Source of the DNA: Acidobacteriota bacterium
GTDB taxonomy: Bacteria; Acidobacteriota; Blastocatellia; Pyrinomonadales; Pyrinomonadaceae
Assembly (NCBI GenBank): GCA_019239425.1
Contig: JAFAZX010000045.1
Span: forward strand, 124,001 to 188,000
Length of the DNA stretch: 64,000 bases
Direction: 5' to 3'
Shown: in pieces, positions 47,846-48,415 of the stretch
How the letters are laid out: each line of letters starts with the position of its first letter
How positions within the stretch are numbered: position 1 is the stretch's first letter
Translations under genes and position numbers: made by a program
Notes under the pieces: model-generated
The model's database searches: none
What the model was told of the DNA's origin: nothing
What the model saw: only the letters and a program-made list of their open reading frames with translations

Positions 47846-48415
47846 CTAGTCGCGCCCGACACCGAGCGCGTCGGCGACGCGGTTGATGTAGTTGAACCAG
47901 GAGGCGATGAGTGTGATCTGTAGTATCGCCTTGTCTTCGAAGCCGGCGGCCCGAAGCTTCGTGTGGTGTTCGGGCGTGACGCGGGTGGCGTCGCGCGTGA
48001 GCTGCGCGACGTAGTCGAGCATGACGCGGTCCTGGTCTGAGACCGGCGCGGTGGTGTAGTCGTCCTGTATGGCCCGGACGAGCTCTTCGTCGAGTGTGAC
48101 GCGACGCAGAAACTCTGCGTGAGACTCGATTCAATAGTGACAGCGGTTGAGGGCCGAGACGACCGTGGCGATCATCTCGTGCTGCTCGCGCCTGAGCGGA
48201 AGCTCCGGCGACATCAGCACGCCGAAGGTCGAGAAGGCGTGGTAGAGCGCGTCGGGCAGAAGGCTGTGCGAGGCCACTATCCCTGAAGACCCGCCGTCGG
48301 GCGTCGGGTGGACGGGCGTCGCGTACTCCTCGGGGTAGAGGCCGCGCTGCGCCTCCATCGCCTTGCGCAGTTTCTCGTCGGCCTCTTCGAAGGGCACGGT
48401 CTTAATCCAGGTCAT
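47846..48415 (-). CDS. AhpD-like selenoprotein (carboxymuconolactone decarboxylase/peroxidase-related), UGA read as Sec
   Basis: A 189-residue frame interrupted by a single in-frame TGA (48133-48131) and otherwise intact to TAG 47848-47846. Upstream it reads [15 protein letters not shown] and downstream [10 protein letters not shown], so TGA falls exactly on the second cysteine of the AhpD redox motif CxxC-x3-H (C92-H-Y-U95-I-E-S-H99). A stem-loop (48120-48114 with 48110-48104, 7 bp, loop GTT) begins 10 nt after the TGA, with 17 nt between TGA and loop, and a G at the first loop position, as in bacterial SECIS elements. Family members are thiol peroxidase-like; Sec forms of AhpD-like proteins are known. 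The ATG lies inside the permease 3' end, so the two are coupled. Confidence 0.85.
48104..48133 (-). promoter_or_regulatory. Candidate bacterial SECIS element
   Basis: On the minus strand, UGA is followed after 10 nt by ACGCAGA-GTT-TCTGCGT. The 7-bp stem is perfect, the loop begins with G, and the UGA-to-loop distance is 17 nt. These fit the features reported for bacterial SECIS elements recognised by SelB. Confidence 0.75.

Follow-up and report, generated by a model that had tools for sequence, protein, structure and literature searches.

The gene on the minus strand at positions 47846 to 48415 of the window (the whole 64,000-nucleotide stretch of DNA that was analysed) is predicted from its sequence, with a probability of roughly 0.95, to encode a complete selenocysteine (Sec)-containing AhpD-like enzyme. 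The predicted selenoprotein has 189 amino acids, with Sec at residue 95, and the assignment draws on a readthrough translation, matches to the TIGR01926 and Pfam CMD profiles, and the likeness of its AlphaFold model to AhpD-like crystal structures.

An in-frame TGA at the AhpD-like redox motif

The reading frame runs from an ATG at 48415-48413 to a TAG stop at 47848-47846 and, when translated with TGA read through, consists of 189 codons plus the stop and contains a sole TGA (48131 to 48133, minus strand). This TGA occupies the second position of a CxxC-type motif, giving C92-H93-Y94-U95 with His99 four residues later. The earlier note had given the coordinates of both the gene and the TGA without naming the strand, and had placed the TGA at the second redox Cys of an AhpD motif; both claims are borne out, on the minus strand, by the CHYU sequence and by homologues, which have Sec in this column or, in two of them, Cys.

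An open frame that spans a TGA is not rare, as 87 TGA codons in the window have at least 60 open codons on each side, and in a plain list of open reading frames the sole entry in this frame is the 104-codon upstream piece. What lifts the frame above chance is that profile matches cross the TGA, that 89 of 90 distinct homologous genes share the TGA, and that the nucleotide sequence of the downstream hairpin is conserved. The match to Pfam CMD across the TGA scored 36 bits against a cut-off of 23, and that to the NCBIfam peroxidase-related enzyme model TIGR01926 scored 110.9 bits against a cut-off of 81.8, in agreement with the note's further claims of an AhpD-like identity and of homology on both sides of the TGA.

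In a set of 90 distinct homologous genes, the codon at the column of residue 95 was TGA in 89, locus L111 included, and TGC in one; a second Cys-form homologue was found beyond this set, and the Cys forms have CxxC or TxxC at the motif. The homologues have both halves intact, with high identity on either side of the TGA. Within the same bacterial family there were 50 matches with E < 1e-40 in 49 genomes, with the TGA internal; genome G080 has Cys at the column, and the match in G105 is a fragment that ends before the site. A scan of species genomes, which partly overlap with those of the family scan, yielded 80 loci that are mainly from Acidobacteriota, the other record titles being Gemmatimonadetes, Latescibacterota and Pirellulales, which belong to metagenome bins that may be mislabelled; the assignment of the TGA homologues to Acidobacteriota, Gemmatimonadota and other phyla follows these record titles. 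Plasmid records contained distant relatives alone, all less than 60% identical.

A second subfamily of AhpD-like genes with a TGA, about 34-41% identical (L138-L142, L165-L176), is present in some of the same genomes, and the two members scanned both scored above the TIGR01926 cut-off. Two other AhpD-like genes (L145 and L147), about 30% identical, also have an in-frame TGA at the CxxU column and possibly represent further selenoprotein subfamilies.

The SECIS hairpin and the selenocysteine machinery

A 7-bp stem-loop with the sequence ACGCAGA GUU UCUGCGU (positions 48104 to 48120, minus strand) starts 10 nt past the UGA, and the distance from the UGA to the loop is 17 nt; the SECIS-like hairpin that the earlier note described, with a G first in the loop and this spacing, was thus recovered exactly from the sequence. 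The bacterial SECIS (bSECIS) model places a G at position 1 or 2 of the loop and the loop 16-37 nt from the UGA (PMC13188914), so the GUU loop at 17 nt agrees with the model for an apical hairpin. The loop is GUU in all 90 main-family homologues, and all seven pairs form in 86 of the 90, compared to 2.3% for codon-shuffled versions that encode the same peptides.

The constraint on this segment is seen in the codons themselves. The ratio of synonymous-codon entropy in the 90 distinct genes was 0.23 over codons 109-115, compared to 0.90 elsewhere, and codons 109-114 (P0001 numbering) are the six lowest in synonymous variation among 162. These hairpin codons, which specify His-Ala-Glu-Phe-Leu-Arg, are CAC, GCA, GAG, TTT, CTG and CGT almost without exception, whereas synonymous codons vary freely at the adjoining conserved residues Ser108, Arg115, Val116 and Thr117 (same numbering). 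In the second TGA subfamily, the loop is mostly GG plus one base, and G-C often replaces C-G at one stem position.

Folding of the single-sequence hairpin region was no better than that of shuffled sequences (z of -0.2 to -0.9), and therefore thermodynamics alone was set aside in favour of the comparative evidence. An Rfam search gave no match to the hairpin, and a search of the host genome with the hairpin pattern returned, besides the AhpD-like locus, a single three-mismatch match without a TGA.

The host genome encodes SelA (456 bits), SelB (368 bits) and two tRNA-Sec genes with the anticodon TCA. Of the machinery that the earlier note had proposed to look for, selA, selB and tRNA-Sec were therefore present, but no SelD in the draft assembly exceeded the cut-off, the best score being 58.8 bits against 125. 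SelD was likewise not over the cut-off in the congener G108, and was over it in 99 of 119 genomes of the family, including the congeners G106 and G107. Because the draft assembly is 94.6% complete, a missing stretch of assembly is the likely reason for the absence of selD. The selD genes of relatives usually have an in-frame TGA of their own, in the context SCAG-U-VAK (L131, L134, L135). The two tRNA-Sec genes, L001 (G000:C102:14720-14814) and L002 (G000:C33:63655-63749), are nearly identical, each is followed by a dprA-like gene, and the segments are 83% identical; the two copies reflect either a genuine duplication or the binning together of two relatives. Genomes G101 and G038 also have two tRNA-Sec genes each.

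In the phylum sample, SelA was present in 28 of 28 genomes with a TGA ortholog, compared to 252 of 396 genomes overall (hypergeometric p of 1.8e-6, a value not corrected for relatedness). Both Cys-form genomes examined (G080 and G132) are without SelA and have altered hairpins: 3 of the 7 pairs are left in G132, and 6 of 7 in G080, with a weaker fold and with three otherwise fixed synonymous positions altered but an unchanged SHAEFLRR peptide. The motif of the G132 homologue is TRYC, with Thr for the first Cys, an indication that the residue in the Sec/Cys column is the one that cannot be dispensed with. The few members of the second subfamily without a clear SelA are all in genomes that are at most 75% complete.

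These data bear on three other explanations of the TGA. If the gene were a pseudogene, or the TGA a sequencing or assembly error in what is a Cys codon, the gene would be dead or misread; the short 104-codon entry in the frame list and the draft state of the assembly would fit such a reading, but the same TGA, flanked by intact halves, is present in about 90 distinct genes of many different assemblies. A base-calling error is untenable because the same TGA is present in dozens of independent assemblies, and we rejected this explanation, which is extremely improbable, because the TGA is conserved and the synonymous sites are constrained. UGA occurs as a sense codon in some lineages, and a variant code or suppression might insert another amino acid such as Trp. 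However, a normal TGA stop ends several of the homologues, the genome has tRNA-Sec, SelA and SelB, and Cys is the sole non-TGA residue at the column among close homologues; an alternative code was rejected on these grounds and has a negligible likelihood.

It could also be that translation stops at the UGA to give a truncated product of 94 residues and that the hairpin reflects constraint on the protein alone, as strong conservation of the peptide SHAEFLRR would force some conservation of the DNA. Against this, six successive codons are nearly without synonymous change whereas S108, R115, V116 and T117 vary freely, the Cys-form homologue L137 has SHAEFLRR with changed codons, and the half of the gene downstream of the UGA stays conserved, which leaves truncation with hardly any probability. 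The favoured reading is therefore that of a complete Sec-containing protein, in which SelB and Sec-tRNA-Sec would decode the UGA at residue 95 as directed by the downstream hairpin, as the conserved signals and the machinery suggest.

Predicted active site and function

The AlphaFold model of the protein has a mean pLDDT of 74.8, with residues 1-60 modelled poorly and residues 71-180 well. The best match among AhpD-like crystal structures was 3c1l (Z of 20.2, rmsd of 2.4 over 140 residues), and 3c1l, 2pfx, 6k40 (DR1765 of Deinococcus radiodurans), 2prr and 2oyo share the same fold at 25-30% identity over the structural alignments. The active-site CxxC and His are found in the alignments with 2pfx and 6k40, with Cys in these structures at the position of Sec in the present protein.

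Residues Glu80, Cys92, Tyr94, residue 95 (Sec) and His99 were invariant in 26 homologues. All five positions of the AhpD proton relay are thus present, with Sec in place of the second Cys, and their spacing is that of the relay in PA0269 and Mycobacterium tuberculosis AhpD (PMC3141380). M. tuberculosis AhpD (1gu9, 1knc) shares the five-residue Glu/Cys/His(Tyr)/Cys/His relay (PMC3141380), and its second CxxC Cys, Cys133, corresponds to Sec95, whereas overall identity with the present protein is about 10%; the chain topology of M. tuberculosis AhpD also differs from that of AhpD-like PA0269 (PMC3141380).

Because all five relay positions are present with Sec for the second Cys, our best guess is that the product is a selenolate-based hydroperoxide or disulfide reductase. 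In the proposed mechanism, the Sec95 selenolate, activated via His99, Glu80 and a water, would attack a hydroperoxide, Cys92 would resolve the selenenic acid to a selenenylsulfide, and, by analogy with the AhpD family, a cellular thiol or lipoyl system would reduce the selenenylsulfide. By the same analogy, the peroxidase step itself is somewhat favoured.

An APC-type amino acid permease gene (positions 48402 to 49784, minus strand; Pfam AA_permease_2, 173 bits) is immediately upstream and shares 14 nt with the start of the AhpD-like gene. A search for promoter-like sites around the AhpD-like gene found none. In 19 of the 73 loci that could be tested, the window's own included, a permease homologue immediately precedes the AhpD-like gene. 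This points weakly to shared expression, and the two genes are possibly co-transcribed.

AhpD-like proteins can be weakly active or act as adaptors, and the selenoprotein might be a disulfide reductase or adaptor, with no peroxidase activity itself, that feeds electrons to a peroxiredoxin or other partner and is perhaps linked to the permease. Such a role, which we consider a serious though less probable alternative, has precedents in M. tuberculosis AhpD, an adaptor for AhpC, and in AhpD-like PA0269, the direct activity of which is weak (PMC3141380; PMC8945050), and the permease upstream in the 19 loci would fit it. However, the genes examined immediately beside the AhpD-like gene in the window included no peroxiredoxin gene, and DR1765, an AhpD-like protein of the same structural group, guards D. 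radiodurans against H2O2 and requires the CxxC Cys pair (PMC8945050), a finding that does not separate the two roles.

Relation to known selenoproteins and significance

The first description of AhpD-like CxxU selenoproteins, from the Sargasso Sea, dates from 2005 (PMC1088965), and they were counted in surveys of 2006 and 2008 (PMC1794560, PMC2398784), the first of which listed 4 selenoproteins in Acidobacteria (PMC1794560). Because the present gene passes the TIGR01926 cut-off, and a 2026 review lists TIGR01926 as the AhpD-like CxxU selenoprotein family (PMC13188914), it does not represent a new family. The earlier note had called it a probable new selenoprotein: the TGA in 89 of 90 genes, the hairpin and the machinery uphold "selenoprotein", whereas "new" holds for the individual gene alone, as the family (TIGR01926, COG2128) has been published. 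A literature search on selenoproteins in Pyrinomonadaceae found nothing relevant.

The protein is like the published family (TIGR01926/COG2128; "AhpD-like" in the Sargasso Sea set of 2005 and "AhpD-like 1" in the GOS set of 2008) in its TIGR01926 match, in having Sec second in CxxU and in the bSECIS directly downstream. Marine metagenomes were the source of the earliest published sets, whereas the present clade comes from Acidobacteriota and other soil bacteria, and it differs in that its SECIS hardly varies and Cys forms are very few; the two were likened via the TIGR01926 score and these features. NF041238 (AhpD_rel_CFYUT, alkylhydroperoxidase-related (seleno)protein; Sargasso Sea hypothetical protein 1) has a related CMD/AhpD domain with CxxU, but the present protein scored 64.6 bits against this 357-position model, far below the cut-off of 175. 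NF041238 and NF053654 were rejected on score as the family of this gene.

Although the gene adds no new kind of selenoprotein, a broad soil-bacterial clade with an invariant SECIS is a modest extension of the known family. More speculatively, the clade might be a distinct, nearly obligate-Sec orthologous group without a curated model of its own, whose SECIS is invariant in nucleotide sequence in several phyla and whose role is specialised, perhaps in connection with the adjacent permease, but we regard this as rather doubtful.

A standard gene caller would split or truncate the AhpD-like gene, and the same should hold for its many relatives in soil Acidobacteriota. Once correctly annotated, the gene extends the repertoire of an abundant soil phylum by a selenium-dependent redox enzyme. 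The gene set is also a clean natural experiment, in which Sec and the SECIS go with selA, and Cys and an altered hairpin go with its absence.
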